64,000 nucleotides of DNA. Source: Cladocopium goreaui (taxonomy: Eukaryota; Sar; Dinophyceae; Suessiales; Symbiodiniaceae). A program made the position numbers and the translations under genes. The notes beneath the pieces are model-generated. The model did no database searches. It had not been told where the DNA came from and worked only from the letters and a program-made list of their open reading frames with translations. The DNA is taken from assembly GCA_947184155.2 (NCBI GenBank), contig CAMXCT020006646.1, positions 62,001-126,000 on the forward strand, given 5' to 3'. Below are positions 5,564-43,940 of the stretch, in pieces; position 1 is the first letter of the stretch, and the number at the start of each line of letters is the position of its first letter.

Positions 5564-5657
5564 CTGCTTGGTGCTTTGGATTTTTTATTTTCCCCAGCAG
5601 TTGGTCATAATCATCCCAACTGACTCATTTTTCAGAGGGGTTGAAACCACCAACCAG
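5564..5657. repeat. Family B element
   Basis: Left end slightly diverged (CTGCTTGGTGCTTTGGA). Right end TTGAAACCACCAACCAG intact. Confidence 0.8.
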
Positions 5658-8767: not shown

Positions 8768-8871
8768 TACCCTCTGGTAAACTAACATAACTATGGAAAA
8801 TCACCATTTTTAATGGGAAAATCCATTATAAATGGCCATTTTCAATAGCTATGTTAAATTACCAGAGGGTA
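8768..8871. repeat. Family A element, canonical copy
   Basis: TACCCTCTGGTAAACTAACA to AAATTACCAGAGGGTA. The arms ATAGCTATGTTA/TAACATAACTAT pair almost completely. Confidence 0.9.
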
Positions 8872-13284: not shown

Positions 13285-13502
13285 ACCAAAATAGTAGTAT
13301 AATATGCTACGGCAAAATGATGTATTTTGAGGACGGGAACACCTTGAACATTGAGATGGTCCATCTGAATGAATTTGATGACCGAACCCGACATAACAGA
13401 GGAATGATGGTTGTAGGGTGGGTTATTAGCCCTGTTGGGGGAGGTAGTTTAGAAACAGAAATGATTGTTGGGCCGATTGTTGGGCATGGGTAAGTTTACA
13501 AT

Positions 13503-13613
13503 TACCCTCTGGTAAACTAACATAACTATGGAAAATCACCATTTCTAATGGGATATGTATATCAACTATAAATGGTCATTTTCAATAGCTATGTTAGTCA
13601 TTATCAGAGTGTA
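13503..13613. repeat. Family A element
   Basis: TACCCTCTGGTAAACTAACA to CATTATCAGAGTGTA; the right end is diverged. Confidence 0.8.
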
Positions 13614-14223
13614 ATATATAATTATGTGACTGTTTGAAAACGAAAGATCAGCGACGGAAGATCGTTGGGGAAGAGAACATCCAGCTGTTCTAGCTATGTT
13701 GATGTGAACAGAAGGGGTACGAAGGTTTGGGCTCGTACCTTCCTATAGATTTTGGTTTATGTCCGTCTAACCTTCAAAGGTTGTTCATTTCCGGGACGTT
13801 TTTTTTTTTTGGGGGGGGGTTATATACCTTGTATATTTTGATATGATACATAGATGATGAAGTAGAAGTAGTCAGTAGTCCAAAAAAAAACTGGGGAATC
13901 CAAAAAGTCCCTCCCAGTGGTGAGTGCAGTAGGAACAATTGTGGCTATTATGTGGGTAAAAACAAAGCAGAAATTAGCGCGAAGACAACGCAGTTCGACA
14001 CCAAGTGTTGCTAGTTACATCCGAAGTACAACAAGCAACCTCATTTGTTCTATATAATCGGTGCAAACTGTTTCTCTTCGTTCTTTCGTGATCGTAGACG
14101 CCCCATGTTGCTGACAGAATTCAGCTGCGTACAAAGAAAAACATGTGGAAAAACAGCAACAACACATACCAGCAAACTGATTCCAGTATATTCCAGTACC
14201 ACAGTTTTTTTTCTTCATATTTG
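13614..14223. other. No supported gene
   Basis: About 600 bp containing a poly-T/poly-G run at 13800-13820 and short weak open frames on both strands near 14015-14260. No family copy and no clear exon. Confidence 0.4.
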
Positions 14224-24153: not shown

Positions 24154-24181
24154 TCAATGATTGCTTTTCTTGAATGTCCAT

Positions 24182-24286
24182 TACCCTCTGGTAAACTAAC
24201 ATAACTATGGAAAATCACCATTTTTTCATGGGAAAACTCTGTATAAATGGCAATTTTCAATAGCTATGTTAAATTACCGGAGGGTA
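24182..24286. repeat. Family A element
   Basis: TACCCTCTGGTAAACTAACA to AAATTACCGGAGGGTA. Confidence 0.85.
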
Positions 24287-24944
24287 CCCATGAAGATGGT
24301 GGGATTCCTACGGATTCCTGTCCATGGAGCCCACTGATCCGACATATTCTGGTGACTCCCCGGGAAATATGTCATTGAGGTGACTGGTGTTGGATACTCT
24401 CTAGTTAAAAAAAAAGATAGTGGAAAAGCCGGGATTTCCCGGCGAAAAATGAGCTGCAAATAGATACAGATAGTACATCATTTTAAATTTAGGGTATCAC
24501 CGCATGTACCAACCATTTCTATCCATTTCTTACCAACCATTTCTGATTCCAACCATTTCCGATTCCCCTGGTTCTCTAATGACTCAATGACTCGCAGGCG
24601 GGAGTATCTGATGAAAACCTGGCGGGATGTCACTGAAGGCGAGGGCTTGGGGAAGGGTAGTTTACCAGCAAGAATTGGGAGGCTTTGAATATACCAGTTA
24701 ATAAACATGTGAATATATATATATAAACAGAAAAAGGATTAAGTGGGCGAAACTTCTTGTAGGAACAAATTAAGTACTATAGCAAAAAAATGTTTTGGTA
24801 CCGGCGCCATTAGCGACCCTTAGTAATTTGAGCATCGTCCAAAAATGAAAAGAACTCAAACTCAAAACCTGCATTTCGGAGCCCTTTTCTTTGGAAGCCA
24901 ACATTGCAAGGCTTCAGATTCCTTGGTATTTGCAAGAGGGCGAA

Positions 24945-27001: not shown

Positions 27002-27062
27002 CCAACACCTTGGCTGCGAGGCCATGGGCTTCGGAAAGCTGGCCACGGCCTTTGCAGATCAA
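27002..27062 (+). CDS. Thioredoxin domain 1, exon a (N-terminal helix)
   Basis: A 61-nt exon between a TGTTAGCAG acceptor and a GTGGTC donor. It reads QHLGCEAMGFGKLATAFADQ with G/C third positions. KLAT also opens the second domain (39815), which supports the assignment. It joins in phase 0 to the exon at 27850, which starts with GLELREYY. Confidence 0.7.
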
Positions 27063-27116
27063 GTGGTCAGATCATATACTTAGTATACATCGTTATCAAC
27101 CTAAAGATCTGATGTT

Positions 27117-27178
27117 GGGGGGTTTCCATAAATTTGATATAAATGGGGGTACCCCGAAATGAATGGTTTATAATGGAA
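27117..27178. repeat. Family F fragment
   Basis: TGGGGGGTTTCCATAAATTT and GGGGGTACCCCGAAATGAAT resemble the left half of family F. Confidence 0.5.
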
Positions 27179-27216
27179 AAATCCGATCATGGAAATTGGG
27201 AGGTGATGAATGGGAA

Positions 27217-27350
27217 TTTCAGGGTCCTAAAATGGAGATACGTTAGTACCATATCATATAAGGCCATATTTTGTGGGGATATATCCCCTTACATAGGCCT
27301 TGTATAGGCCTTATATATAGTAGGTACCTCCAATTTAGAATCCTGAAATG
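27217..27350. repeat. 134-bp imperfect palindrome
   Basis: TTTCAGGGTCCTAAAATGG at the left pairs with the inverse CCAATTTAGAATCCTGAAAT at the right. The core repeats ATAAGGCC/GGCCTTAT. Confidence 0.7.
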
Positions 27351-27849
27351 GCCATTGACTAAAGATCTGATGATATTATTTAACATATTTAAGTATACAC
27401 ATTATAAAACTAATATATAACGATTTGTTGATATATATATATATACTGTGTATATATATATATATGATAGCCATTTGTTGATTTAAGCATTAGTTGATAT
27501 AAGCATTTGTTGATATAACCATTTGTTGTTTTTCCATGGTCAAAGATATTTGTATGTTCGATCGGTATTGTATACAACAATATTGTGCCATTGAATGTCC
27601 CAATTGTTAACGCTCCAAACCCAATGATGGCTTGTGAAATGTCACATTTTGGTGAAGGAAATCAACATGTTTGGTAAAACCAATGCCATACACCACCCAT
27701 TTGGGAGTGGTTGGAATCCCAGCTATAAAAATGGTGATTTGGAAAATTTGGGGGATGCAAATGGCATTGTTTTACCCACATTACTTGGTTTCTTGTCCTA
27801 GGTCCGGGTATGCCCATCCCAATCTTCGAAACCTGGGACTTGTTTGCAG

Positions 27850-27897
27850 GGCCTGGAGCTGCGTGAATACTACGCCGCGGCCTGCGGTCATTGTCAG
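27850..27897 (+). CDS. Thioredoxin domain 1, exon b (active site CGHC)
   Basis: Exactly 16 codons after a GTTTGCAG acceptor: GLELREYYAAACGHCQ. This is the beta-strand plus redox-active Cys-Gly-His-Cys motif of protein disulfide isomerases, with YYAAACGHC replacing the usual FYAPWCGHC. Both catalytic cysteines are present. The intron that follows begins GATGGG, so the donor is of GA type. It joins the next exon in phase 0 to give CGHCQALAPAW, a standard PDI continuation. Confidence 0.9.
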
Positions 27898-27946
27898 GAT
27901 GGGAGATGACGATCTGGATGGTTGATATATACATATATATATATAT

Positions 27947-28058
27947 GTGCCCTTTGGTGATTTAACGTAGCTATAGACCCATCTGTAGATGATTTATGAT
28001 GATTTACCTATTAAAAATTGTGATTTTCCATGGCTACATTAAATAATCAGAGTATATA
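27947..28058. repeat. Family A element, decayed
   Basis: GCCCTTTGGTGATTTAACGT at the left and GCTACATTAAATAATCAGAG at the right. Confidence 0.6.
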
Positions 28059-28343
28059 TACATATAATTATATATAGGAAGGTATCATGGAATAACTGAT
28101 AATGGCATATTGATGGCAAATCATGGTTTTAGGGATTGAATGTGCAATATTATTTATATATATATATATGTATATGTATATGTAAGTATATTTATATGCT
28201 AGGATATCTAGATATATTCTGTGAACATTTTTTTTATTAATGGCATATCAATATAGATCAGTATGAATGGTGAATAATGGGAACCAGGTATAATAGATAT
28301 AGCTTCCATGGGTTAAACAAGTCGCCGCTTCCAGATCCTCCAG

Positions 28344-28400
28344 GCCCTGGCGCCTGCCTGGAAAGCAGCCCAGAAGGCCTACATCGGTCCGGTGACCTTC
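28344..28400 (+). CDS. Thioredoxin domain 1, exon c (APAW helix)
   Basis: After a ATCCTCCAG acceptor it reads ALAPAWKAAQKAYIGPVTF, equal to the helix after the active site (x-L-A-P-x-W) and the strand G-x-V-x-F of PDI domains. The end is uncertain: domain logic suggests stopping near TTC at 28400, while a GT donor at 28440 would extend the exon to 28439 in phase, adding RPLGLPSIVMGNM with equally good codon bias. Confidence 0.85.
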
Positions 28401-28718
28401 CGTCCCTTGGGCCTTCCGTCGATCGTCATGGGGAATATGGTAGTTATATCCTAGCATGGTTACATATAGATCTAAAACTGTATGGTAGTTATATCCTAGC
28501 ATGCTAGTTTTAGTCAAGTCTGAGAACTATGGTTACACATAGAAACCGGCATGGTAGTTGAAAACCATAGTTCTAAACGTGTATATCTACATAGATGTTT
28601 CAAACCCATGGGTGGTTAACCTAGTCGGAAAATTGTATCGACGTGAAACCGGTGGGTAACTTCCACATGAGTTTTGTATACCCTAGATCGGTGATTTTTG
28701 TGACTTCCAAGCACATGA

Positions 28719-28822
28719 CTGGTTGGTGGTTTCAAACATGTTTTATTGTCCATTTCATATATGGGATGTCATCCTTCCCATTGATGAATGTTTTGCAGAG
28801 GGGTAGGTCAACCACCAACCAG
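28719..28822. repeat. Family B element
   Basis: CTGGTTGGTGGTTTCAAACA to GGTCAACCACCAACCAG. Confidence 0.85.
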
Positions 28823-28890
28823 TATATCAATTGGATAACCATTAATAGCCATTAATAACCATTAATAACCATTAATAACCATTAATAACC
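28823..28890. repeat. ATTAATAACC tandem repeat right of family B
   Basis: About five units of CATTAATAAC follow the B element after a 12-bp spacer. Confidence 0.8.
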
Positions 28891-28922
28891 TGATGATGTT
28901 TTTAATGTGCTCCTGAGGTCAG

Positions 28923-28979
28923 ATCGAATGCCATGATCAGAACTGGAATCCCGTGCCCGAAAACACGGAGCTCTGCAAG
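28923..28979 (+). CDS. Thioredoxin domain 1, exon d (IEC strand)
   Basis: A 57-nt exon of 19 codons, IECHDQNWNPVPENTELCK, after a GAGGTCAG acceptor. It corresponds to PDI strand beta-3 (V-D-C) and the following loop up to the L-C-K of the third helix. The following intron starts GACCGC, a GA-type donor. That boundary is supported by domain 2, where the uninterrupted sequence LCKDVEAFPTIK shows exactly what should follow. Confidence 0.88.
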
Positions 28980-29825
28980 GACCGCTTAGGGTAGCCGCAG
29001 CGCTAAGGGCTGCGCCGCGTAGCTCTCCGCTACCGCAGTGCTGCTGGGGATCTCCCAGGTTTCAGAGGAAATCCCCAGAGTTGACAAGAAAACTCCTGGT
29101 TTTTGGAATTTCCGATGTAAGATGAGCAAGAGGTTTATAGAGGTTTGCTGGGGACAGTTCCGCTTATCATAGCTGTTTCACTGTATCTAAGCTTGCATGA
29201 AAGAGCATGCCGTTTATATGCGTTTCTCCTTGCTGGTAATCAATCTCTTGAAATCCATTGCATGTAATTCTTGGTTCTGAATTCATGTCAAATCCCATGT
29301 TTAAACAAACAGTGTTGATTCTTCTCCTCTCAGTTTTCAAGTTTTCGAGTACTACAGAAAACCATAATATATATCCTCCTTGAAATTTCCACTACGAAAA
29401 GGTAGGGCATATCCCCAGTACAAGGCTTGTTCTGTATACCTAAATGTGCCTAGTCCCCGAGGGTATTGCCATAACTTTTTGTATCCAGTTCATTTTTGAT
29501 AGTTGGCCTAGGTTGGGAAATTGTTTTTGCAGAGCTTTCAGCTCTATGTTTTCAGAGGCTTATCTTGGGATACCAGACCCCGGCTTAACCAAATTGTAGC
29601 AAGGTTGGTTCTGTTTTTGTAGGCTTCCATTTTGTACCTACCAAGTATGTGCATGCATAAAGCTGCATGGAGTGGATGTGCAGACTTTTTTTGGTAACAG
29701 CCTGCCATGACTCACGCTACCTTGTCAAATTCTTGCACCTCGCCCTTTCTAGATTCTAGGTAGCTTGGCTGCCCACACTGTTCCTTGCAAGATAATATAT
29801 ATATATGTATAATATATATATGTAA

Positions 29826-29861
<36 letters not shown>

Positions 29862-31465
29862 TTTTATTATTTATTATATATATATATATTATATCTTATA
29901 TTATATATATATATATTTTATCTTATGTATATATATATAATATTATATAGTTTTTACATATTATATATATATATAAATCTATGTGATTATATGTATATAT
30001 TACAATCCCTTCAAAAAAGGAAAGTCTCATGACTATGTCCATACCGTGATAGGGTGTTTCTCAATTTTGAATTGCGTGTGTTTCTCTATTTTGCATTCAT
30101 GTTTTGAGCTGCTTCTTCTTCAGCAGGCTCATTGAAAAGGATGGTTGAATGACAGTTTGGCTTACCAATGCGAAATAAAAAATCCGGCCCTTCCCAATTT
30201 GTAGCGGAGAGATTACGCGTGCGTTTGTTTTTCGATGTCTTTCGCTGCCCTTTTGTTTCACATTACATGTTCAAACACCTTGAGAAAGCGGCCGTTGGTT
30301 TCATGACTATTTCCTGTATGTTTTGGCTTGCTACATGATTTTGTGTTCTTGCTTTTGGGCAGCTGCCCTTTCGACTACGAAGCATCCTCAACAATGCTAG
30401 TTAAGAATGGTGGTGCGTGACCAGAAAACCTTGACATGCAACCTAAAAATCACTTTTTGTAGTGTCTGGATGCTGCCCTTCCCAATTTGTAGCGGGGAGA
30501 TTGCGCGTCTTTCTTTTTGCAGGCTCCTCGCTCATACCTGCGAAACAAACCATCTTGTTCCTGCGTTGATTGTTCTTTTGGCGAGCAACTGAAGAAGCAG
30601 TTTACCTGTGTCATGCTTCCATCCTGGTCATGTACTAGCACCCGGCATCAAAATCATGTGTTGCATTGCACACTTTTATCAAGCCATAAGGCAGGTTCCA
30701 TCACACTGTGCCCTGTTACCCATGTCTCCTAAGTTGCCTGTCTCCACGTCCCCAAGTGAAACCCTAAAGGTATGGAGTTCAAACAGAGAGGCAGAAGAGG
30801 ATGCTGGCCCCCAGGTCCCCCCAACTAACCCGCCCAAGTCAAACTTTGCGAGGAAAGTAGATCCAATATGATCTATAATTAGTTTAGACTAAGAACAACT
30901 CGCCTCAAACCAGTCTGGAAGGATCATTCCAGAGACTTCCAGCGGCCATAGCTACAAAAGGCAAAATATGCAAAGATTTGCCAAGAGTTCTTGTGTTTTC
31001 CTGGTTGGGACTCCTATGTCAAGATAGGCTACAAAAAGACCCTTTGGAACAGACGTCATGCCCAGGGAGCGCTAGAAAAAGAAACGACTTCGGCAGCAAC
31101 ACTGGGCAGCTACAAAAAGCACTTCTGGATTCGCAGATCCTTCTTTTGGTGGTTTTTGAAGCCATTTGGTCTGTGCCTGACCTTTTTGTATCTTAAACAA
31201 ATTGGTTTTTGTAGCGATTTTTTTTTAGTGGATTTTGTTTTCTGTATTGTTGGGGGTTGTACCCAGCCAGAAGGTACCTACATCAAGGGAAGTAACCCTC
31301 ACCCCCCAAATTTCAACGGGGATTAATATATAACCATTTTAACCATAGGCATCCACAGGCCATAGGCCCTTTTTCCGCTGAACATCCCACCATGTTGAAA
31401 TTGAACAGATTGCCCCATCGCTTCATCCTGGTTCATCCTTTTTCGTCAAAGACGACGGGAACCAG
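28980..31465. other. Long intron of thioredoxin domain 1 (candidate)
   Basis: About 2.5 kb almost free of families A-G. It contains a TA-rich tract (29790-29995), a near-identical 30-bp repeat (CCCTTCCCAATTTGTAGCGG at 30188 and 30477), and the motif GCTACAAAAA in both orientations several times. A + strand open frame at 30991-31326 (111 codons; YVKIGYKKTLWNRR, then aromatic-rich) is the most protein-like part, but it overlaps this repeated motif. Another + frame at about 30733-30809 ends at a GTCCCC donor. I do not call either a gene. Confidence 0.4.
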
Positions 31466-31494
31466 GACATCAGGGCCTTTCCCACCATCAAGCC
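31466..31494 (+). CDS. Thioredoxin domain 1, micro-exon e (FPTIK)
   Basis: Only 29 nt after a GAACCAG acceptor: DIRAFPTIK plus two bases. It carries the invariant cis-proline motif (FPT) of thioredoxin folds. The donor is GC type (CC|GCTCGG), matched at the same position and phase in domain 2. Introns of about 2.5 kb and 0.8 kb flank it. Confidence 0.85.
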
Positions 31495-32274
31495 GCTCGG
31501 ATCTGGCGATCCCTCGTGGATGGATGAAACGGATTCACAAGGATTGATTCATCATGGATATTATACATCATATTATATATACTTAAGATACACGAATATC
31601 AACCAGGTCTATTTGCAGCCTATTTCCAGGGTGTTGGTCCTTGAGAAGGAGAAACAGTGCCATTTTTTTGACACAGATCCTTTCTGATCTTTTTTTGTTG
31701 GACGCACACAATTTGTGATTTCTGAGTCATTCAGGGTTCGATGGTTCGATTCTTTCCATCCTACGGTGATCATTGATTGCCACCCACAAACCACTGAGGC
31801 AACCAAGTGCCAAAAAAAAACAATTGACCAAGCTATGCAACTTGCGCAAATCTTACCTGAAAAGTTTCATTAAAGTAACATAATTAAGTAACATCCTGGA
31901 AGTAGATTTGATGTGTTCTATCATTTGTTTGCTTACTGTAAGCCATTCCATCAATCACCCCATCCAATGATGGATAGAATCGGATAGAAGTAGCATAACC
32001 ATGCATAAACCCTAGTTACATTTACATTACTTTTGTTTACCAACTTAGCTGACGAAAACTGGGGCCCTTGCAAGCAACAAGCCATTCCATCAACCATCAT
32101 CAACCAATAGTGATTATGATTAAACCATATTTTAACCATATTAAACCCTTAAAATGACCAGATTTTTTCTGGGTAGATCACTCTTCTTCACCATTTTTGC
32201 TGGTCAACCGTTCAACCCCCGGTGTTTTTTTCCAACCAAACGGGCCGCGCCATGCACCGCACGACGGGCCCCAG

Positions 32275-32366
32275 GATGTTCAAGGACGGCAAGGAGCTTT
32301 CGGACTACGAGGGCAATCGCAGCTCCGCGAGCCTGGTGGACTTTGCCAAGCAACATGAGATCCGCA
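32275..32366 (+). CDS. Thioredoxin domain 1, exon f (C-terminal strands and helix)
   Basis: After a GGCCCCAG acceptor it reads MFKDGKELSDYEGNRSSASL then VDFAKQHEIR. This is the standard PDI end: strand, K-D-G-K-E turn, Y-x-G-x-R, and the helix L-V-x-F-A-x-x-H. The right edge is set at a GT donor (GTGGCA), and the frame stays open a little further. A family E repeat begins about 30 bp downstream. Confidence 0.88.
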
Positions 32367-32398
32367 GTGGCACAGTGGGATGGTGGCTACCATGGTTA

Positions 32399-32528
32399 AT
32401 GTCAACCCCGGATTAATAAACCATGGTTTATCAATTAGGGGGGTACTCCTCCAATAGTCATAATCTGATACTTAAATGGTACACTCCCAATTAAACAGCC
32501 TAGGGGTTTATTAATCCAGGGTTGACAT
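32399..32528. repeat. Family E element, complete
   Basis: ATGTCAACCCCGGATTAATA to ATCCAGGGTTGACATTA; close twin of 21931-22059. Confidence 0.85.
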
Positions 32529-32586
32529 TAATGATGGTTAATGATGGTTAATAGTGGTTAATAGTGGCTAATACTGGTTAATTATG
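32529..32586. repeat. GGTTAATGAT/GGTTAATAGT array between families E and B
   Basis: Five to six units bridge the right end of family E and the left end of family B. Confidence 0.75.
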
Positions 32587-32692
32587 CTGGTGGTGACTGG
32601 AACCATAGAATTTGATGACTTTCCATAGGTTGGGAATGTCATGATACTGACGAACTCATATTCTTCAGAGGGGTAGGTATACCACCAACCAG
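32587..32692. repeat. Family B element, left end diverged
   Basis: CTGGTGGTGACTGGAACC to GTATACCACCAACCAG. Confidence 0.7.
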
Positions 32693-33156
32693 GTCCAGGT
32701 ATGGCTATTTTCATGCTGTGTTTCTGGATCATTTTTGGGAATATACCGTACCCTTTGATAGGAAAATCCACGAGTTTGAATAAAAACCAAGTATATAAAT
32801 CATCATAAATCATCTATAAACGGGCCATTTTCCATGGCTAGGTTAAATAAGCAGAGGACAATTGGAATATAATGTGATAGTGTAAGCCCAATTTCATAAA
32901 CCATCCCCAATTTCACCAGAATTGCTTACGGTTGGAATTAAATGGTATTAACCATATATTAAAAGAAAAACAGAACAGGGGAGAGTGGGAGTGCAACTTT
33001 TCTGCATATTACTTCAAAACCTCAAACAAATTTGATCACAAAGCACACATGAATTAGCTTTTGAAACCTTAACCTATGTTGAACACAAACAAAAAAAACT
33101 GCAACTAAAAAACAACAAAAAAGCTAACCCTATGTCCCAGTCACTCATGGAACCCC

Positions 33157-33558
33157 ATGGGCTTGTTTTTTTTGGTGCTTGTTTGTTTGTTTGTTTGTTT
33201 TTGTTTTCTCGAGATTTTTGCAACTTCTGCCTTCTGCCCAAAATTGCCAAAAACCAATGGAAAAAATAAACAAACAATGAAGGTCTATGAGTGGTTGGCC
33301 CATGTCTACTCAGTCACATCTCATGCATATCATCCACGTGTGCATTTTTTGCTGATTTTCTCATGGTGTGTGCTGATGTTCTCATGGTTTGGGCACCCTT
33401 CCAGAAAGTTACCTGAAACCATGGGAGGAAATGCATCACAGCCGCGACTTGAAAATAGAATCGGCCAACTAGTTTCAGCATGGCCTTTGAAGTTTGTTTT
33501 CAAAACAAAATCCTCCAATACATGCCTCGTGCAGCAAGACTTTTTCCCAAGAATATGA
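33157..33558 (+). CDS. Possible open frame, unknown, low support
   Basis: A 133-codon frame starting at ATG. The first third is low-complexity hydrophobic (from TTTGTTTG repeats); the rest is more balanced (KVYEWLAHVYSVTSHAYH). Codon bias does not match the better exons. It may be chance. Confidence 0.15.
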   Translation: MGLFFLVLVCLFVCFCFLEIFATSAFCPKLPKTNGKNKQTMKVYEWLAHVYSVTSHAYHPRVHFLLIFSWCVLMFSWFGHPSRKLPETMGGNASQPRLENRIGQLVSAWPLKFVFKTKSSNTCLVQQDFFPRI

Positions 33559-33970
33559 CATTCCTTGCTGTTTCAAAATGGTTTGGCTTACCAGGGTGTA
33601 GTAATCTCTCAATACTATTTCCCCTCCACCGACTAGTTGTATTTTTTTGCTTTTTTGTTTTTTTTGTTATGGCGGCATTTTCATTTGGATGACCATTTTG
33701 CAAGAGACATTAGGCATGATGATGTGTATGAAGAATTAGCACCAACGACTTACTGTAAAACTAACAAAAACGCGAACTCCCACTGTCCCCCGCTCTCTAA
33801 AAAACTGGGTTTGTATTATTATTACTATTATGACTACGATCATTGCTATTATTATTGGGTGATTAGTGGGCAAGCAAATGGTAATGTACTGTTATGGAAT
33901 GTATTGAATTGTATGGGTTTACGGGGATATGGGAAATAGTGGAGAATATCATGGGATGTACTGGCTATTT

Positions 33971-34176
33971 GGTTGGTGGCTTAGGGCGCTTCATGATTTG
34001 ATCCTAAATATCTACTGGAGCCTAGATCGTGATGTTTTTTTTGATTCACTGGGCATGTTTGGAGCCATTGAGATATAAGCTATGTACTGGCTGATGGTGT
34101 TTCCAAGTATACTGTACTTGGTGTGATACCCAATGACGAGCATATTTGTTCAAGGGGGCATGTAATCACCAACCAG
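33971..34176. repeat. Family B element, expanded and decayed
   Basis: GGTTGGTGGCTTAGGGCG at the left and GTAATCACCAACCAG at the right, about 200 bp apart. Confidence 0.45.
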
Positions 34177-34179
34177 TAT

Positions 34180-34873
34180 AGTTTTCAACATAACTCCTCA
34201 TGCTTTTTGTAGGTGAATCTTTCGCTTCCAAACTTGGATGAGGGACGATGAGGGGAAACATTCACAGCGAGCTTCCATATGTTACCTTAAAGGCACGGTG
34301 ATGATTCCTGGCAGCTATTCTTTCGTGAGCCTACCCCATTCCCCAATGTTTGATCATTTCTTCTAGCTGAACCTTTCTCTTTCAGATTTGATCAGAATTG
34401 GAAGAAAGCTACAGTCCTACCAAAAATAAAAGATAAGAAACTACGCAACATATTTTAATATATTTATTAATACTCTGATAATTATACCAATGTTGTGCAC
34501 TAAATTGAATATTAGCAATCGGTATAAGCATTTGTAATTGGCTTCCAATCCTATTATGCCGTATTAGTCTTAGTAAAACAAGAATAAATCACCGATATTT
34601 TGATTTTGCTCATACCCATCCAAATGGTAAGTCATTGGGGATGGCGGATCCTATTGCTTTACTCGCATTCATGATTTGCTTGATCATGCATTAATGATTA
34701 ATAATTACTATGAAGTACTACTATGGCTCATTAATAGTACTATTATGGATCATTCATAATCACTATTCATCATCCATTAATGATTAATAATTTGCTTGAT
34801 CATTCATTAATATTATATAATCATTATTACATAGTTACCATTGCCTTACCACCGCACCCCAAACCCATCCAAG
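34180..34873. other. No supported gene
   Basis: About 700 bp of AT-rich DNA with ATTAATGATTAATAATT-type repeats at 34690-34820. Confidence 0.5.
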
Positions 34874-34986
34874 CCACTGAGCCCAGGAAGCTGTTGAAGC
34901 AGTCCGCCCTGCCATTGCTGGCCGCAGCTCTTCCGCCTGCCTCATCTTCCCGGCAACGTCAGGCATGGCGGCGCGGGGACCGTGAG
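34874..34986 (+). CDS. Candidate exon between thioredoxin domains
   Basis: A 113-nt patch after a CCATCCAAG acceptor and before a GTGCAC donor. In phase 2 it reads TEPRKLLKQSALPLLAAALP then PASSSRQRQAWRRGDRE, with strongly G/C third positions. Composition (Ala, Pro, Ser, Arg) suggests a disordered or linker region. A family A element begins about 50 bp after the donor. Confidence 0.5.
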
Positions 34987-35037
34987 GTGCACGAAAGCTC
35001 CAGCCGAAAACATGGGAAATGAATGGCAATTAGGGTT

Positions 35038-35141
35038 TACCCTCTGGTAAACTAACATAACTATGGAAAATCACCATTTTTAATGGGTAAATCCACTATA
35101 AATGACCATTTTCAATAGCTATGTTAAATTACCAGAGGGTA
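35038..35141. repeat. Family A element, canonical copy
   Basis: TACCCTCTGGTAAACTAACA to AAATTACCAGAGGGTA; about 95% like 8768-8871 by eye. Confidence 0.9.
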
Positions 35142-35145
35142 ACCA

Positions 35146-35262
35146 CTACCTAGACCCTCCAAGTACCAATAAACACGAGATAAAAATGGCGGTTCGCCAT
35201 GTTTTAGCCAAGTTTAGGACCTTGACCATTTTGTTCAGATATTTGGAGGGTCCAGGTATGTA
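35146..35262. repeat. Palindromic element with CTAGACCCTC ends
   Basis: ACCTAGACCCTCCAAGTA at the left and TTTGGAGGGTCCAGGTA at the right. A related left end lies at 15955 and a possible right end near 60266. Confidence 0.6.
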
Positions 35263-35403
35263 TTCTAAATGGGGAATGACTGGTGGTTTATTAGGGGAAA
35301 TATTGGGTATGTATATATATATATATAAATAGATTAGATCGATAGATAATGTTGTCAAACTGGTGTAAACCGAACATTTATATATATATATATGTATTTA
35401 TTT

Positions 35404-35432
35404 ATAGATAGATAGATAGATAGATAGAGATA
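35404..35432. repeat. (GATA)n microsatellite
   Basis: Seven GATA units next to a TA run. Confidence 0.9.
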
Positions 35433-36028
35433 GGTAGATAGCTATGAAAAATGGCCCGCTTGTAGACGATATACCGTTTTTTTCTCTCCATAGCTATGTT
35501 AGATCACCGGAAGGTATAACCCGGAACTATCCATGTTTTTTTGGTTTACAACTGAACAGTTTTTTCCTGGTTGAAGTTTTACTTGGAGGCAGCGGCCACA
35601 TGTTATCATGACATCACTGGGATGATATGTTTTTCATGTTGGTGAGTTACCGCAATTTATCCAAATAAATGTACTAAAATTTCTGGAGATAGATAAGGGG
35701 CCTATCTTAATTTTTACATGTTGATACGGTAGAGGCATTTTATGTGTATAGATCTTTAGTGCGCTTGCAGCTCACAATTTGGACATATCTTGGTTGGAAA
35801 TGTGGTGTCTTGCAGGACTTTAGCCTTGTTGGGAGGGGTAGATATACAGCAAGTTACTCGTGAATTGCTGACTGGCACAATCGCCCCAGCAACTACAAGA
35901 TTGTAGGACGCTGTCACATTATCCTTTGAATGGAGAGTCCCCAATTTACTCAAGATTTACCTATCAGATGGGGATCAAGTTCATCAGTTCGCTGCTTCCC
36001 TGGAAATGTGACTCACTTTTGTGTCCAG

Positions 36029-36142
36029 GCGGCTGCGTTTCTATAGGCCACATATCGGCGCAGAACTCGGCGCCTGGCTTGGATGCAGGCACAGATGGGT
36101 CCAAGATCCTCTGGTTCATCCTGATTTGCTCATGAATTTTAT
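36029..36142 (+). CDS. Candidate exon, unknown protein
   Basis: A 114-nt patch between a TGTGTCCAG acceptor and a GTAAAT donor. In phase it reads RLRFYRPHIGAELGAWLGCR then HRWVQDPLVHPDLLMNF. Both splice sites are canonical. A second frame is also open (SIGHISAQNSAPGLDAG), so the frame is a judgement from residue composition. Confidence 0.45.
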
Positions 36143-36443
36143 GTAAATTTGGGGTACACCCCTCATTCGGACGCCATTTGACATCATTTGACATATGAGA
36201 TCATGTGAGAATATGAAGTTGAAACAACCATTTGGGTATATGTTGGATCATCTATAAAACACCTCCATTCCGTTGTCCCAAATCTGTGGTTTCATCCCGT
36301 ACATCCCCCACGGATTCTTGTGGGTGTTCAAAATGAACCTGGGAATGGGAAAATTAACATCCTTTAAATGGGGGATTTTCCAGCAATGACTGATTACCAG
36401 AGGGTATGTGCAACATAGCCCTCAAGCCAAGGTATTTAAGTGG

Positions 36444-36564
36444 TACCCTCTGGTTATTTAACATAGCCATGGAATCCATGGCCCATTTATAGATGATTTT
36501 CCCAGCTATAAACCTCCATTTATTTTGGGGATTTTCCATGGCTATGTTAAATAACCAGATGGTA
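36444..36564. repeat. Family A element
   Basis: TACCCTCTGGTTATTTAACA to AAATAACCAGATGGTA. Confidence 0.85.
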
Positions 36565-36699
36565 TTTTGGAAAATGTTTTTTTTACCACTGTAATCCAGT
36601 GGTCTAAAAACCTCATTGCATCTCATTGCTTTCCAGGTTTCCCAATTTTATGACTATTCGATTCAACTGCCAATAAAGTTGTATGCGTAAAATTGGATT

Positions 36700-37090
36700 A
36701 TTAGTAATATATATATATATGTATATGTAACTATCATATCCTAATGTTTCATTACAAATTTTCAACTATTAGTATGTCTATTCTTGTTGGTGCTTTGAAA
36801 TACTTCTCATGTTGAATCCTGGGATGATGCTGCCCAACGACGAGCAGGCTGAAGCCATCAAGCCAGTGGTTGGACCAATTTGCTAAATTTGCTAAGTTAC
36901 TTTAAAACTAATACACGTAGGTTTTTTGGCAGATGTGTATGTATAAATATATATGTGTGTGTGTGCGTTTTGAATACACTTAGGGTTATGGTATAACTTG
37001 GTATAACTATAATATATATATATAATATTTGCAATATGCATATACGGATGCACACACACATACTGTATATATATATATACAGAACATAGA
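36700..37090. other. AT-rich stretch with TA and GT runs
   Basis: TA runs at 36708-36730, 37010-37030 and 37065-37080 and a GT run at 36954-36966. No exon seen. Confidence 0.6.
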
Positions 37091-37487
37091 ACTGCATAGA
37101 ACGGAACAGCTAGCCTCCGGTAATCAAACATAGCAATGGAAAACCACCCATTTATAGATGTGTTTTTCCATTGAAACTTAAAACAAAAAACCCTCTTTTG
37201 TAGAGGATGTTCAATTGCCTTCAATTGCCACGTTTCCAAGCTTCAAGGCCCAACCTTTACTGCAACCCCCGCTGGCCAGGCATATGCAATTGGCCCAATT
37301 TCCACGAGAGGAGGCCAAAATTCACTGCGGAAATTCGCAAACATCGCTGACTCCACTTGGTGAGCCGACTGGTGCGGACAAGGTTTATTTTTAGATATTT
37401 TTTGGACAGATGGGAAACTACTATACATATGTATAGGTTTACAGCTTTGATTAGGCTTGGAATTATTTTTCTTGTGCGTTTTCCAAG

Positions 37488-37607
37488 ATTCTCACGCCGC
37501 ACCCAACAGCAGAGCGTTTGAGTCAATCCTATGGTACGCACTGCGGCGGTTCAACCATGGTGATGTTTGCTACTTCTGGATTCAGTCTTGCAGTAGTTTC
37601 GTTGCCG
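37488..37607 (+). CDS. Candidate exon, unknown protein
   Basis: A 120-nt patch between a TTTTCCAAG acceptor and a consensus GTGAGC donor. The best-biased frame reads SHAAPNSRAFESILWYALRR then FNHGDVCYFWIQSCSSFVA. A second frame is also open (HPTAERLSQSYGTHCGGS). The exon itself is well supported; its frame is less sure. Confidence 0.5.
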
Positions 37608-37827
37608 GTGAGCAAATGGCCTTGGCCACTGTTGATACGGTCGTGTGCAAACTAGTGCTAGGTGCTACCACGAAACAGTGGAAATTAGGGTCCTACACAG
37701 TTAGAAAGACTGGTGGCGATATCCCCAGGTGTGGATACCTATTGTTAGTTAGTTGCATCCCCTCCATTGTTATGGCTCAAGTCTGTTATTGTTACTGTAC
37801 CCAACAGAACGGTATGTTATTGATCAG

Positions 37828-37936
37828 GTGGCCGGGCTGACGCGTCTCGTGACTTCGGTCAGAGGAGGAAGTATTGGATGCGGAGGGAAAAATGCCGAGG
37901 ATGCAATTACATCCGAGGACTGCACAAATGCATGCA
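37828..37936 (+). CDS. Candidate exon, unknown protein
   Basis: After a TTGATCAG acceptor, 109 nt read VAGLTRLVTSVRGGSIGCGG then KNAEDAITSEDCTNAC, with good codon bias. A GTCACC donor at 37937 closes it. Three cysteines in the second half are notable but match no family I recognise. Confidence 0.45.
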
Positions 37937-37964
37937 GTCACCAGCTTCCCATAGACATCCTATT

Positions 37965-38235
37965 ACTGAATCACCGATTCACTGAGTCATTGATTCACTG
38001 AATCATCCTTTCATTGATTAATCAGTCCATTGCTTCATTGATTCATTGAGTCACTGATTTATTGAACCATTGATTCATTCATTCGCTGTTCCATTGATTC
38101 ATTGACTCATCGATTCATTGGTTCCCTGCTTGGTTGATTCATTGAGTCATTGCTTCGTTGCTACATTGATTCACTGATTCATTGATTCATTGGTTCATCG
38201 ATTCATTGGCTCATTGGTTCATTCACTCAGTTCTG
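37965..38235. repeat. Degenerate TTGATTCA tandem repeat
   Basis: About 25 units based on CATTGATTCATTGAGTCATT over 270 bp. Confidence 0.85.
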
Positions 38236-38454
38236 CGCAGATTCTTTCATGTCAGTTCATTGGCATCTCAACCACCAGTTGCTCATTCGTTGATGCACCT
38301 CACAACTTCAACCGCTCATGACTTCTGCATCTCAAAAACGTTCCTGTAGGCCATTGATTTCTTATAGTCACCTCCTATTTCGAAGCTTCCGCCCCGGCCC
38401 TTGCCGGGCACTATTGTAGAATCATATTATATATTATATATACATATACATACA

Positions 38455-38492
38455 TATGTGCGTGCATGCGTGTGTGTGTGTGTGTGTGTCTA
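38455..38492. repeat. (GT)n microsatellite
   Basis: GTGTGTGTGTGTGTGTGTGT following ACATATGTGCGTGCATGC. Confidence 0.9.
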
Positions 38493-39236
38493 TGTTTAGA
38501 CATTCAATGAATGCATGACTGTGTAGGCCTTGGGATTGTGATGGTATGTATATTGGCTGCCGCCATTTCCTGCCCTACTTGTTCCATGATGCAGTCACTT
38601 GAAGCTAGGACTCAGGACATGAGCCAGTCGCAATCAACAGTGAGGAGGCACATAAATGATTGAATAAACTGACATTATTTCACAACATATTTCACCGATA
38701 TACCCTTTCAAGAAATCAAGTGAAGTCGCCATCCTTATTCGACCTCTCAAATCTCAGACGGCCCGCTGAACAGCGAAAATGCCAGGCGCCCCGCACTTGC
38801 GTTGGTAACTAGACAGTTCTAATCACCATGGGATTGCCAGAGTTAGCCTATATTCAAAAAAAATAGCTATCGTTGGTTTCACCTTGTATAGCATCCCATA
38901 CGGTATGGCCCATACGTAAGAAGTGTCACTCAATGATGTGTTAGTCGCATCTATTTGCCAAGGCCTTTCTTGCAGCTTGGTGGTGGATGTCGGTGGTTTC
39001 ATCCGGATGGTAGAAATCTTCACTACCAGAGGGACATTTGAAACCAACCAGCATCAAAAAACAAAGGTCTTGGGATGTCTTGGGTACCTGATCCCGACCT
39101 GTTTTTTTGCTGGCCATTCTGATCTTCATCCCTTCCGATCACGTTTTCTGGGCAGGGCTGACGTCATTCGCTGATGCAGCCATGCTCTCAGGGAGAGCTT
39201 GGGCCCAGAAGACGCGGTAGACGTCAATATTGTTAC

Positions 39237-39389
39237 TACCCTTTGGTAATTTATCAATAGCTATTGAACATGGCCATTTGTTAATAGTTGAATATAGTTG
39301 ATTGACACACACGCACAAACACACACACAGATATATATATATATAAAGTGATTTTCAATAGTTCTAGTATATTAGTTCACCAGAGGGTG
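39237..39389. repeat. Family A element split by a CA/TA microsatellite
   Basis: TACCCTTTGGTAATTTATCA at the left and AGTTCACCAGAGGGTG at the right. The middle is replaced by ACACACACGCACAAACACAC and a TA run. Confidence 0.75.
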
Positions 39390-39661
39390 CTATGTTTGCT
39401 ATGTATTACTCCTTTGGGGATCTGCAAGGCTAGCATTGAACCCAAATCGATTTGGACATGTCTGATTTTCTGTGTCAAACCCACTTAAGCGGAAGGTATA
39501 CCAGGTAAGCCCTAATCCACGGCCAGTTAGATCATATTAATATACTAGAGGTTTATCACATTCTATAGCATGTTTTATTGTCCAGATGTTTCCCATCCAT
39601 ATATACAACTTTATACAACTACTATATCAGGATCAACACATGCCAACTGCATAATGTAGCT

Positions 39662-39765
39662 TACCGTCTGGTAAACTAACATAACTATGGAAAATGACAA
39701 TTTTTAATGGGTAAATCCACTATAAATGGCCATTTTCAATAGCTATGTTAGTTTACCAGAGGGCA
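39662..39765. repeat. Family A element with flanking direct repeat
   Basis: TACCGTCTGGTAAACTAACA to GTTTACCAGAGGGCA. The flanks TGCATAATGTAG and TGCATAGTGTAG may be a target-site duplication of about 12 bp. Confidence 0.85.
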
Positions 39766-39814
39766 AATGCATAGTGTAGACCATACATAAACCATCGATA
39801 GATCCCATTTCAAG

Positions 39815-39890
39815 CTGGCCACCCACTGCTCGATGTGCAGTGAAGAGCCTAAGGGCCTGGAGCTGCGCGAGTACTACTCGGCAGCCTGCG
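39815..39890 (+). CDS. Thioredoxin domain 2, exon a
   Basis: A 76-nt exon after a TTTCAAG acceptor. It reads LATHCSMCSEEPKGLELREY then YSAAC, equal to exons a+b of domain 1 but uninterrupted. An extra CSMC pair precedes the active site. It ends within the CGHC codon block (TGC G|GCAGCC), a GC donor. Joined to 40385 it gives YYSAACGHCQQMAPAW. Confidence 0.88.
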
Positions 39891-40384
39891 GCAGCCTGGA
39901 AAAACCGGGTACCATGGGCTGATGCGAACTGAATATCATATAAGATGCATTTAAGCAACAAATCATTGGGTTAACCCATGGGCTTATGTTACTGAATTGC
40001 GACTTATAATGATTTATATATGGTAATTTTCAAAGCATAGCCTAGCTATGGAAGATCACAATTTATTTCATAGGTACATCATCTATATGAGCATATGAGC
40101 CATAGCTATATGTCAAATAACCGGAGGTTAACGATGGGAACTTGAACGATGCCACCGTCTCGTCATACCGATACCGCTGGAATGTGACAATGATCATATG
40201 GCCCATCGAGAATGGTCATAAACGCTTGGATTGGTTTCAGGAAACAAAACAAAAGGAACCCCTAGATTTGAGGGTAAAACCATGGTAATACCATGGTTCT
40301 TCAGCTAAGACGGCTAAGATGTTGCATATCTTCCCAATCCATTGGCCATCAGGGCCTCAGGGCGGCCTGGGGACGTTCCCTGAG

Positions 40385-40470
40385 GTCATTGTCAACAAAT
40401 GGCGCCCGCGTGGAAGGAGGCGGCGGCCAACTATTCCGGACCAGCTCCATGGCATCGAGGCGATCTTCAG
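40385..40470 (+). CDS. Thioredoxin domain 2, exon b (GHCQQMAPAW)
   Basis: An 86-nt exon after a TCCCTGAG acceptor. It completes the CGHC motif and continues QQMAPAWKEAAANYSGP. The remaining residues (APWHRGDLQ) run to a GTGACA donor, and this tail is less like a standard PDI strand. The acceptor and upstream donor phases agree. Confidence 0.88.
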
Positions 40471-40490
40471 GTGACATCCGTGGTTTTTTT

Positions 40491-40630
40491 CTCAACTCCG
40501 GATGAATAACCCCCTAGTTTACTAATTGGAAGGGTACCATTTATAAAGGAAAAACATACTATTTTGATTATTTTGGGAACCCTCCATATAAATTATATAA
40601 TTGGGGGTTTGTTAATCCGGGGTTAACATT
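40491..40630. repeat. Family E element, diverged
   Basis: CTCAACTCCGGATGAATAAC to TTAATCCGGGGTTAACATT, beginning about 20 bp after a splice donor. Confidence 0.7.
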
Positions 40631-40856
40631 ATAATAACCATGGGTCAATGGGTATAACCATGGTATTTAACTCCACAATTCCGGCGACAGATATCAACTT
40701 TTTTTTTGGCACTGTACCCCCAAGTAAGTAGGGTTGGGTATTTTGTATTTTTTTATGTTTAAAACCAATAAGTCTGTTACGTTCTACGAAGCAATCACCA
40801 CGAATCGACGAATCGGGGACTTGCTTACGGAGGGTTCGACGAATCGGACCTAGATG

Positions 40857-40936
40857 CTCCATGGTGCTGGTATATTTACCTACCAAACTGGGTGATTTTT
40901 GTTGGGGTAAATGTTGATACATATTCCAGCACCATG
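40857..40936. repeat. Family C element, complete
   Basis: CTCCATGGTGCTGGTATATT at the left and ATATTCCAGCACCATGG at the right, an inverted pair. Confidence 0.8.
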
Positions 40937-41044
40937 GGGCCCCCATGGGAAAAAACAAGGATCATAGTGAGTACAGTGTCATTATACTAAGGATTATACC
41001 AGTTTTCCTGGATCCTCAAGTGATTTACTAGTGTTGATCCTCCA

Positions 41045-41168
41045 AGATGTCACTTAAGGAGGACTGTAACGTGCTACGTCCCGTTGCCACGGGCCTGGCA
41101 ACGCCACGGATCCCGGTGGACTATGGGATGTGCGCTGCCCCTACCACCAGTTCAATAAATGCTCGGTA
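41045..41168 (+). other. GC-rich coding-like patch, frame unresolved
   Basis: About 100 bp inside the candidate intron between domain 2 exons b and c. All three + frames look partly coding. One frame ends at a GTAAAA donor (GGLWDVRCPYHQFNKCS) and another starts after an ACTTAAG acceptor (EDCNVLRPVATGLATPRIP). It may encode an insertion in the domain. Confidence 0.35.
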
Positions 41169-41185
41169 AAAAAGATTAGAACAAA

Positions 41186-41291
41186 TACCTTCTGGTTATT
41201 TAACATAGCTATAGAAAATCACATTGTTTTAATAGGTAAACCATCTATAAATGGGCAATGTTCAATAGCTATGTTAGTTTACCAGAGGGTA
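41186..41291. repeat. Family A element
   Basis: TACCTTCTGGTTATTTAACA to GTTTACCAGAGGGTA. Confidence 0.85.
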
Positions 41292-41410
41292 TGTTATTAT
41301 ATGTTTATATCATCTCATATCCATATGTGTATATAATCTGTATTATATATATGATTATATGATGTAATTGTTTATAACCAAATATATCAAATGTATGTCA
41401 ATGACTGTCA

Positions 41411-41555
41411 ATGTCAACCCCGGATTATGAATCCTCGGTTGATTAATGTTAAGTACCATAATGTCGGGGCACCCGCGCAATGGTAATAATTTGCTACGTT
41501 AATGGTATGTACCCACTTTCAACAGCCCAGTGGTTAATTCATGCGGGGTTGACAT
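41411..41555. repeat. Family E element
   Basis: ATGTCAACCCCGGATTATGA to GCGGGGTTGACATTA, with a diverged middle. Confidence 0.75.
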
Positions 41556-41630
41556 TACTACAAATGAGATAACCAGTCAGACTGCACTCAGCAGTCCAAG
41601 CACTGCAACACTCAGGTTGCATTTCGCCAG

Positions 41631-41660
41631 ATCGAATGCAATGATCAAGATTGGAAGCCT
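41631..41660 (+). CDS. Thioredoxin domain 2, micro-exon c (IECNDQDWKP)
   Basis: A 30-nt exon of exactly 10 codons after a TTTCGCCAG acceptor. IECNDQDWKP is the counterpart of IECHDQNWNP in domain 1. A GTGCTC donor follows directly. Joined in phase 0 to 41869 it gives WKPVEENVDLCKD, matching domain 1. Confidence 0.87.
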
Positions 41661-41868
41661 GTGCTCAGGTTGCAGTCAGTCAATATTTGAGAATAACAAT
41701 GACAGAAACTTGCTTATCAGGGTGTCATCTAAATGATGCAGTAGAAACGCGCTTTCCAACTTGTTTTTCATTTGATGGTGCTGTTTGTCTCAATCTTTGT
41801 TGGCATCTCCACAGCGGTCTTACCTTCCCATCTCTTCCCAGACATCAGCCCCATCTTTGGCCCCACAG

Positions 41869-41924
41869 GTCGAGGAAAATGTGGACCTGTGCAAAGATGT
41901 CGAAGCATTTCCAACCATTAAGAC
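41869..41924 (+). CDS. Thioredoxin domain 2, exon d (cis-Pro FPTIK)
   Basis: A 56-nt exon after a CCCCACAG acceptor: VEENVDLCKDVEAFPTIK plus two bases. It holds the helix with LCKD and the cis-proline motif. It ends at a GC donor (AC|GCTTGG) in the same phase and place as 31494 in domain 1. Confidence 0.9.
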
Positions 41925-42465
41925 GCTTGGCCACGGAATTACGGATGGCGAGCTGGGCCTGCCCAATCGGTGTCCCGAGCTCGCTCAATCCCCAGGGAAT
42001 GAAACAACCGATGCAAACCATGAAACGCCGATCTGCACGGGTTCTCACATATCTTAGCGTCCCCAAATCTCAACCAAACTTCCGGCTAAGTTTGCTCTAA
42101 TCTGAGCCAGTGTTGACTTCTGGGATATCTTGGGAAATGAATCTAAATCAAAATAATTATCCATGTTCTATATTTTTCTATGATCTAGCCACTGGTAGCC
42201 AGAGAAATCCGGCACATTCCGGCACCGGAAGACTTGCGCTGAGAACTGGGCGGGTCATAGGGGGCCAAAAACCAATCTTACCAGTCTCCTTTCAAAACTG
42301 AAGACTCACACTGAAAGATGACCTAATTGAGAAAAAAGAGAGACATGGACAAGTATAATGACAAGTATCCTTATCTTAATTACTTGACTCTCCTCAAATG
42401 GGTGTCAAGCTATAGCCTTTTAACCAAGGGAAGATGATATCGCCCCCTGCCGTGTTCCATGTCAG

Positions 42466-42499
42466 GCTGTTCAAGAACGGGGAAGAGGTCACCAACTAT
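42466..42499 (+). CDS. Thioredoxin domain 2, micro-exon e (LFKNGEEVTNY)
   Basis: A 34-nt exon after a CATGTCAG acceptor. It completes a Thr codon and reads LFKNGEEVTNY, the strand-turn-strand after the cis-proline. A GTCGCT donor follows. Domain 1 has no intron here. Confidence 0.88.
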
Positions 42500-42771
42500 G
42501 TCGCTTGGACCACCAAAAACAATGGCTACAGATGGTGGCGAGCTGACTGCGAGGGGGCCGATTGCCAGAACAACAAATCCCTTCCCCCTAAAATTAAGCA
42601 ACACCCCAGAGACCATGGTAGGGGATTTCCACATATTTGGGACCATCCAAGGGACCAATTTAGGACGTGTTTAATATTCGGATGATAAAAGTATGAAAAT
42701 ATGAGTTGGCAATTGCGAATAGCTGCCAGCACTTGGTTTAAAATATGGAAATATGTCTCCCCACAAAGTGG

Positions 42772-42875
42772 TGCCCCCCAGTTATGTTTGTTGGTTTAGT
42801 TCCCCCCTAGTTCGCTATATCTAGCATAAGCCATAGAATTAAGTGGCAAGTTCTAAGTTCACTAACTTAGCTGTC
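42772..42875. repeat. Family D element, diverged
   Basis: GCCCCCCAGTTATGTTTGTT at the left and TTCACTAACTTAGCTG at the right, resembling the D part of 6119-6215. Confidence 0.55.
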
Positions 42876-43035
42876 ATAAATCAATCAAATAAATCCTCAT
42901 CAAATACATATATATATATATATATCTAATATCATATATTTTATCATATATTATATCATATGTTATATCATATATTATATCATGTATATATAGTAACTGC
43001 TGGTTATACCCGGCACCACTGGGGGGCGCAACCAG

Positions 43036-43086
43036 GAAGGGGATCGTACTGCAGAGGGCTTCATGAACTTCGCCCGTCAGCATGAG
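43036..43086 (+). CDS. Thioredoxin domain 2, exon f (C-terminal helix)
   Basis: After a CGCAACCAG acceptor it reads EGDRTAEGFMNFARQHE, the Y-x-G-x-R-T turn and final helix. With 42499 it gives NYEGDRTAEGF in phase. The frame remains open into a Gly/Leu-rich repeat (43087-43140), which may be a linker or lie beyond a donor, so the right end is a minimum. Confidence 0.85.
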
Positions 43087-43192: not shown

Positions 43193-43256
43193 CCATGGTT
43201 AATGATGGTTAATGATGGTTTATGATGGTTAATAGTGGCAAATAGTGGTTAATTAA
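43193..43256. repeat. GGTTAATGAT array left of family B
   Basis: Six units of GGTTAATGAT and variants end at the left edge of the B copy. Confidence 0.75.
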
Positions 43257-43361
43257 CTGGTTGGTGGTTTGGAACATTTTTTTTCCATGGGTTGCAAATA
43301 ATCCTAACCCCATTGACGAACTCCATCATTTTCAAGATGGTTTTTTATCACCACCAACCAG
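43257..43361. repeat. Family B element
   Basis: CTGGTTGGTGGTTTGGAACA to TCACCACCAACCAG. Confidence 0.85.
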
Positions 43362-43759: not shown

Positions 43760-43940
43760 TCCATCCCGATCATCCCTGAAGGAACTTGGCGCAACAGTCG
43801 ATGCCATTGACTGCTGCAGTTCTGCTGCCCTTGACACGCCCTGAGCGTCGAGCGACGAAACTGCGATGCAAGGACTTTCTGTAGACCAAAGTGTCGAGCC
43901 GATCCGTGACTCAGTGATGAAGATGAAGTTTGAAAGTGAT
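43760..43940 (+). other. Coding-like patch, frame unresolved
   Basis: Two + frames are plausible: SLKELGATVDAIDCCSS, ending in TGA, and PLTRPERRATKLRCKDF, ending in TAG. The first weakly recalls a thioredoxin beta-3 strand (V-D-A-I-D-C). I do not call an exon. Confidence 0.25.

Follow-up and report, generated by a model that had tools for sequence, protein, structure and literature searches.

This analysis concerns the introns of two adjacent thioredoxin-fold units, here called D1 and D2, on the forward strand of the window, by which we mean the whole stretch of 64,000 nt that was analysed (eukaryotic DNA, C6005:62001-126000, in an assembly of 1.17 Gb and 6202 contigs). The two are best read as an ancient tandem pair of protein disulphide isomerase (PDI)-like CGHC units in which introns have been both gained and lost since the duplication, a reading to which we give a probability of about 0.85 on the strength of sequence comparison. 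At least seven intron positions are confined to one domain, and at least seven gains or losses must therefore have followed the duplication. The first-pass annotation of this DNA had proposed gain or loss of introns since the duplication, and in that respect it holds; overall, its observation is confirmed in part and its interpretation supported in part, as only one of the two introns that it took to be shared is so. The scenario that we envisage is one of two tandem units in a Symbiodiniaceae-like nuclear genome, each with six putative spliceosomal introns, of which those at two or perhaps three positions would be older than the duplication and the others would have come or gone in the separate copies afterwards.

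Intron positions in the two domains

On an in-frame reading, each domain comprises six exons. A gap-free alignment of the two covers 93 residues, with 61/93 identical, and provides a common scale of 279 nt. On this scale, D1 is broken at nt 0, 48, 106, 168, 194 and 278, and D2 at nt 37, 96, 141, 194, 228 and 278. Two breaks agree in both position and phase: nt 194, phase 2 (hereafter 194/2), in the lysine codon of PTIK, and 278/2, in the glutamate codon after FAKQH in D1 and FARQH in D2. Breaks at nt 48, 106 and 168 were found in D1 only, and those at nt 37, 96, 141 and 228 in D2 only.

Thus, the introns that had been assigned to D1 alone after CGHCQ (48/0, GA donor) and after LCK (168/0, GA donor) are indeed peculiar to it, as are those assigned to D2 alone inside the CGHC block (37/1, GC donor), after WKP (141/0, GT donor) and after TNY (228/0, GT donor). 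The intron after PTIK had been described as shared, in phase 2, with a GC donor in each domain; position and phase are correct, but the donor in D2 is GA. The supposed shared intron before IEC is in fact two different introns offset by 10 nt, one in D1 at nt 106 (phase 1, GT donor), inside the arginine codon of FRQIEC, and one in D2 at nt 96 (phase 0, GC donor), ahead of VAFRQIEC. Finally, 278/2 had been missed from what was given as a complete list of two shared introns. The predicted exons, in window coordinates, are as follows.

27024..27062, + strand: D1 exon 1, MGFGKLATAFADQ, start methionine not proven; GT donor, phase 0
27850..27897, + strand: D1 exon 2, GLELREYYAAACGHCQ; GA donor, phase 0 (nt 48)
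28344..28401, + strand: D1 exon 3, ALAPAWKAAQKAYIGPVTF; GT donor, phase 1 (nt 106)
28918..28979, + strand: D1 exon 4, (R)QIECHDQNWNPVPENTELCK; GA donor, phase 0 (nt 168)
31466..31491, + strand: D1 exon 5, DIRAFPTI(K); GC donor, phase 2 (nt 194)
32275..32358, + strand: D1 exon 6, (K)MFKDGKELSDYEGNRSSASLVDFAKQH; GA donor, phase 2 (nt 278)
34887..35019, + strand: D1 exon 7, candidate, (E)KLLKQSALPLLAAALPPASSSRQ..., open until TGA at 35020; terminal or continuing
39156..39178, + strand: D2 first exon, candidate, GLTSFADA; GC donor, phase 0
39854..39890, + strand: D2 exon 1, GLELREYYSAAC(G); GC donor, phase 1 (nt 37)
40385..40443, + strand: D2 exon 2, (G)HCQQMAPAWKEAAANYSGP; GC donor, phase 0 (nt 96)
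41616..41660, + strand: D2 exon 3, VAFRQIECNDQDWKP; GT donor, phase 0 (nt 141)
41869..41921, + strand: D2 exon 4, VEENVDLCKDVEAFPTI(K); GA donor, phase 2 (nt 194)
42466..42499, + strand: D2 exon 5, (K)LFKNGEEVTNY; GT donor, phase 0 (nt 228)
43036..43085, + strand: D2 exon 6, EGDRTAEGFMNFARQH; GT donor, phase 2 (nt 278)
43782..43884, + strand: D2 exon 7, candidate, (E)NLAQQSMPLTAAVLLPLTRPERRATKLRCKDFL, then TAG (stop at 43882)

The two introns at nt 278 lead to similar next exons, at 34887 (KLLKQSALPLLAAALPPASSSRQ) and 43782 (NLAQQSMPLTAAVLLPLTRPERR). This pair had a local score of 41, the highest among 47 x 23 acceptor pairs. Elsewhere in the window, 8/29,436 control pairs reached the same score, and because all eight were highly similar in nucleotides they were set aside as copies of repeats. 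The position at nt 0 is less straightforward. The intron after ADQ, listed earlier as specific to D1, is present there, but its restriction to D1 is uncertain, as the candidate first exon of D2, GLTSFADA, also ends in phase 0. Of the peptides at the 552 candidate donors of this region, GLTSFADA, which ends at 39178, resembles KLATAFADQ of D1 most closely; across the whole window 2/7201 donors, GLTSFADA included, score 20 or more, and about 0.15 would be expected in the region by chance. Given the exon at 39156-39178, the intron before GLEL (nt 0) may also be shared. Alternatively, the start of D2 may differ, with exon 1 extending upstream as ...KLATHCSMCSEEPK, which has a short similarity too.

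Chance does not readily account for the shared positions. Under random placement, at least one shared position among the inner introns (four against five) has a probability of about 0.07 if any site is allowed and about 0.16 if only sites followed by G are used; for at least two shared positions among six against six, the corresponding values are about 0.006 and 0.03. Because chance sharing is this rare, the shared positions were probably inherited, and the unshared ones form the large majority. That majority could also arise if one unit descended from a reverse-transcribed, intronless copy that regained introns later. Such a history would account for the scarcity of shared positions, and mRNA recycling is known in dinoflagellates (Slamovits and Keeling, 2008, as cited in the part of PMC5029490 available to us), but the two positions shared in exact phase (194/2 and 278/2) speak against it, and we regard it as quite improbable.

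Identity of the units and age of the duplication

The Pfam Thioredoxin profile matches the two domains at 3.3e-18 and 4.8e-18 (66 and 65.5 bits, against a curated cut-off of 23.5), and both carry CGHC and FPTIK, that is, the CxxC active site and the proline that we take to be the cis-proline. Among solved structures, the best matches to D2, the domain used for this search, were TXNDC5 and PDI chains. Like the catalytic domains of the PDI family and TXNDC5, then, D1 and D2 combine a Thioredoxin match with CGHC and PTIK. They differ in reading EYYxAACGHCQ where the PDI family commonly has FYAPWCGHCK, and in that the profile match begins only at position 21-24 of 103, with the first strand either missing or on an exon that was not found. 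If the candidate exon 7 of D2 is read correctly, D2 furthermore ends (43855-43884) in ...RCKDFL, and its C-terminal KDFL resembles the ER-retention tail KDEL. We found no description of this gene in the literature, in queries that were seldom aimed at dinoflagellate PDI genes with introns. The window contained no tRNA and no Rfam match at the gathering score.

Whether D1 and D2 are domains of one protein or two tandem genes does not alter the intron comparison. The chance that they are separate genes is only a little below even. The similar exon 7 in both, running to a stop (35020 and 43882), points that way; so does the space between the units, where no linker exon stood out apart from the candidate at 39156, in a codon-score scan that separated real exons poorly from noise. 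On the other hand, the candidate exon 7 of D1 may have a donor ahead of its stop, and a paralogue on contig C604 holds two such domains within about 1.3 kb, so multi-domain architecture does exist in this family. This compact two-domain relative, with SCPHC active sites, occurs both at C604:123095-124393 and at C161:56530-57834; the copies are 98.8% identical over 3045 nt and represent either a recent duplicate or an uncollapsed haplotype.

The duplication itself is old and its synonymous sites are saturated: at fourfold-degenerate sites, 8/25 are identical between D1 and D2, and third-position base composition alone predicts 29%. The two PTIK introns are likewise no more similar than shuffled sequences (score 19, against a shuffled mean of 20.5). 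Because fourfold sites are at chance and these introns lack similarity, no intron can be called recent; the earlier hint of recent introns is not borne out, and the 12 introns taken as a set bear no introner hallmark above background either. What we see looks like old, accumulated turnover rather than recent events. One similarity might seem to tell otherwise. The introns after exon 6 share a stretch of 88% identity (32528-32595 in D1, 43199-43266 in D2), with a score of 115 against a shuffled maximum of 30. Inheritance was rejected as its cause, because similar combinations of tail and repeat recur at 5522-5593, 3403-3561 and 28718-28883 in the window and because the coding fourfold sites are at chance. 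Gene conversion is a possible source of this similarity.

Paralogues and the direction of change

Gains and losses can be polarised at little cost, and with no need of other species, by a survey of paralogues within the same genome. The 48/0 intron of D1, directly after CGHCQ, recurs in genes on contigs C2145 and C1884, with both sides of the junction read, and this recurrence outside the pair suggests that D2 has lost it. A distant PDI gene on C5813 has an intron at 194/2 and a further one at nt 47, phase 2, again with both sides of each read. None of the positions found in D2 only recurred in the few paralogue domains that were read.

Could loss by itself explain the whole pattern? An ancestor with all eight inner positions, from which each copy lost a different subset, would agree with the presence of the nt 48 intron in other PDI genes. 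However, the positions of D1 and D2 taken together would then require ancestral exons of 10 and 11 nt. Domains on C604 and C1691 add breaks at about 90/0 and 202/1 (C604 A), at 114/0 (C604 B, both C604 domains read on both sides) and at 129/0, 108/0 and 60-66 (C1691, read from one side), and with these the ancestral exons shrink to as little as 2 nt (106-108, where 108 was read from one side). We therefore consider loss alone very unlikely, and gains must be common, since treating every position as ancestral would force such minute exons. At least one loss alongside common gains is likely.

It might be argued instead that 37/48, 96/106 and 141/168 are three introns that have slid rather than six separate ones. 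The members of each pair do adjoin one another, and 47/2 on C5813 lies beside 48/0 on C2145, with similar flanking protein, in a manner that resembles a shift of 1 nt. Nevertheless, the offsets between D1 and D2 are 11, 10 and 27 nt, the phase changes in the first two pairs, and homologous codons are intact on either side in an alignment that has no gaps, all of which makes displacement highly improbable.

A different challenge comes from parallel insertion, in which introns would land repeatedly at preferred codons and phases, 48/0 and 194/2 included. Both positions occur in distant PDI paralogues and are missing from domains that are nearer by eye (not by tree), and as 194/2 is uninterrupted in several paralogues, recurrent gain at one site is possible. 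If this were correct, shared positions in dinoflagellate paralogues would have no value for common descent. We hold parallel insertion to be rather unlikely.

Several points weigh against an ancient pair with both gain and loss, and against its polarisation in particular. The paralogue survey was limited to the best 30 of 105 profile matches, which were cut as loci. The genes with an intron at nt 48 attracted attention by a profile match that broke off directly behind CGHC, so that their agreement with D1 carries less weight than it seems to. In ten other CGHC-type exons of the loci examined, nt 48 is uninterrupted (L007, L014, L017, L019, L020, L021, L023, L027, L028 and L032), as do C604 A, C604 B and one C1691 domain; L010 and L016 are also uninterrupted there and, having other active-site motifs, stand outside the ten. 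Similarly, C2145, C5997, C243 and one C1691 domain have no break at nt 194, a count that excludes L010 and L023, which are unclear at the PTIK site. The break at 90/0 in C604 A may, given a two-codon gap, equal 96/0 of D2, which would make that D2 intron old. Finally, all splice sites were placed by frame continuity, D1/D2 homology and the AG/G rule, and a donor may be hard to place unambiguously if the exon that follows has not been identified; donors after CxxC on C1247 and C1101 were excluded from the positions because no next exon was found.

With these points taken into account, turnover by both gain and loss in an ancient pair is still the reading that we prefer. In it, 194/2 and 278/2, and perhaps nt 0, would predate the duplication; nt 48, 106 and 168 in D1 and nt 37, 96, 141 and 228 in D2 would reflect gain or loss in the separate copies; and the nt 48 intron would probably be an ancient one that D2 has lost, whilst the others would probably be gains for the most part. 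As adjacent paralogues, D1 and D2 control for gene-level rates, and such a locus can show intron positions turning over while the domain stays recognisable.

In this lineage, a direct precedent for duplicated domain genes that have gained introns is provided by the peridinin-chlorophyll protein (sPCP) genes of Symbiodinium, whose short and long forms gained introns separately, according to the available part of PMC4201569. These genes resemble D1 and D2 in being duplicated domain genes with differing intron positions. In the same account, however, other lineages are intronless and the gains could be placed on a tree, whereas D1 and D2 are both intron-rich, old and undated. That dinoflagellates carry introners and turn over their introns fast has already been published; D1 and D2 are one more small, clear example, and they illustrate, without extending, the unusually high rates of intron gain reported there.

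Two further features of the assembly emerged from the survey. A tandem PDI-like array at C5813:365761-385565 spans 20 kb and was matched by the profile five times over the CxxC region; intron sites differ among the three members that were read. On contigs C1 (7.38 Mb) and C2380 (0.64 Mb), long open frames match thioredoxin and GroEL over their full length; these contigs look bacterial, and the assembly probably includes the genome of an associated bacterium.

Splice signals, sources of introns and repeats

The 12 predicted introns have GT (5), GC (3) and GA (4) donors, a dinoflagellate-type set, and AG/G acceptors in 12/12 cases, although the two exon 7 acceptors in that count are not independent, as AG/G was required in the search that found them. 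Their lengths range from 208 to 2528 nt (mean 933 nt, n=12). In the available part of PMC9412976, donors in C. goreaui are given as GT 36.6%, GC 43.6% and GA 19.8%, with AGG acceptors at 96.1% and a mean intron length of 839 nt, and the accessible text of PMC4083563 describes splice sites of the same kind in Symbiodinium minutum. Against these Symbiodiniaceae introns, those of D1 and D2 have no unusual feature, and they look like ordinary spliceosomal introns of the lineage.

At canonical 5' splice sites, the fifth intron base is G in most eukaryotes. Here it is C in 8/12 donors of the window and in 8/13 junctions of other genes (16/25 together), an enrichment over near-donor background with P values of 0.001 and 0.002, respectively. 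The 13 other junctions (from L046, L047, L063, L064, L074, L075, L080 and L083) were picked by frame and AG/G, with the donor motif already in mind for the later ones. Five further donors were left out of the count, their acceptors being unclear or confirmed only later, and C stands at this position in 5/5 of them. On this small sample, C at +5 could be a real donor signal of the lineage, and preferred insertion sites, if there are any, may be linked to it. A longer donor motif with GG at +8/+9 was rejected: it appeared at 10/12 and 9/12 in the window, and in the independent junctions at 6/13 and 6/13 (P = 0.10 each).

Where did the gained introns come from? On general grounds, introner insertion followed by decay is most likely, as dinoflagellate introners belong to the same lineage and are a plausible source (Roy et al., 2023, via the portion of PMC11453091 available; PMC9860276, likewise in part). 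Unlike those introners, the D1 and D2 introns have no excess of repeats at their ends. Terminal inverted repeats at the 12 introns scored a mean of 7.0, against 7.1 for mismatched ends, and flanking direct repeats averaged 3.5 nt over a background of 3.8 nt, and these introns were accordingly not classed as introners. The available text of PMC9860276 describes Symbiodinium microadriaticum introners with 4-bp duplications and inverted repeats, and indicates that such features are not present in every published introner family.

The repeats listed inside the introns lie at least 30 nt from the splice sites, and their families also occur elsewhere in the window. The window holds many copies of a nearly palindromic interspersed element of about 106 nt (TACCCTCTGGTAA...TTACCAGAGGGTA), among them the following.

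35037-35142: copy of the ~106-nt element
39661-39766: copy of the ~106-nt element
41185-41292: copy of the ~106-nt element
24181-24290: copy of the ~106-nt element
13502-13614: copy of the ~106-nt element
8768-8871: copy of the ~106-nt element

Two more families measure about 143 nt (TGTCAACCCCGG...) and about 110 nt (CTGGTTGGTGG...CCACCAACCAG). In the D1 intron after exon 6, a 143-nt element (32397-32539) appears to be inserted in a TTAA-rich repeat (32389-32560); by eye, the D2 intron after exon 6 has the same TTAA-rich repeat without the 143-nt element.

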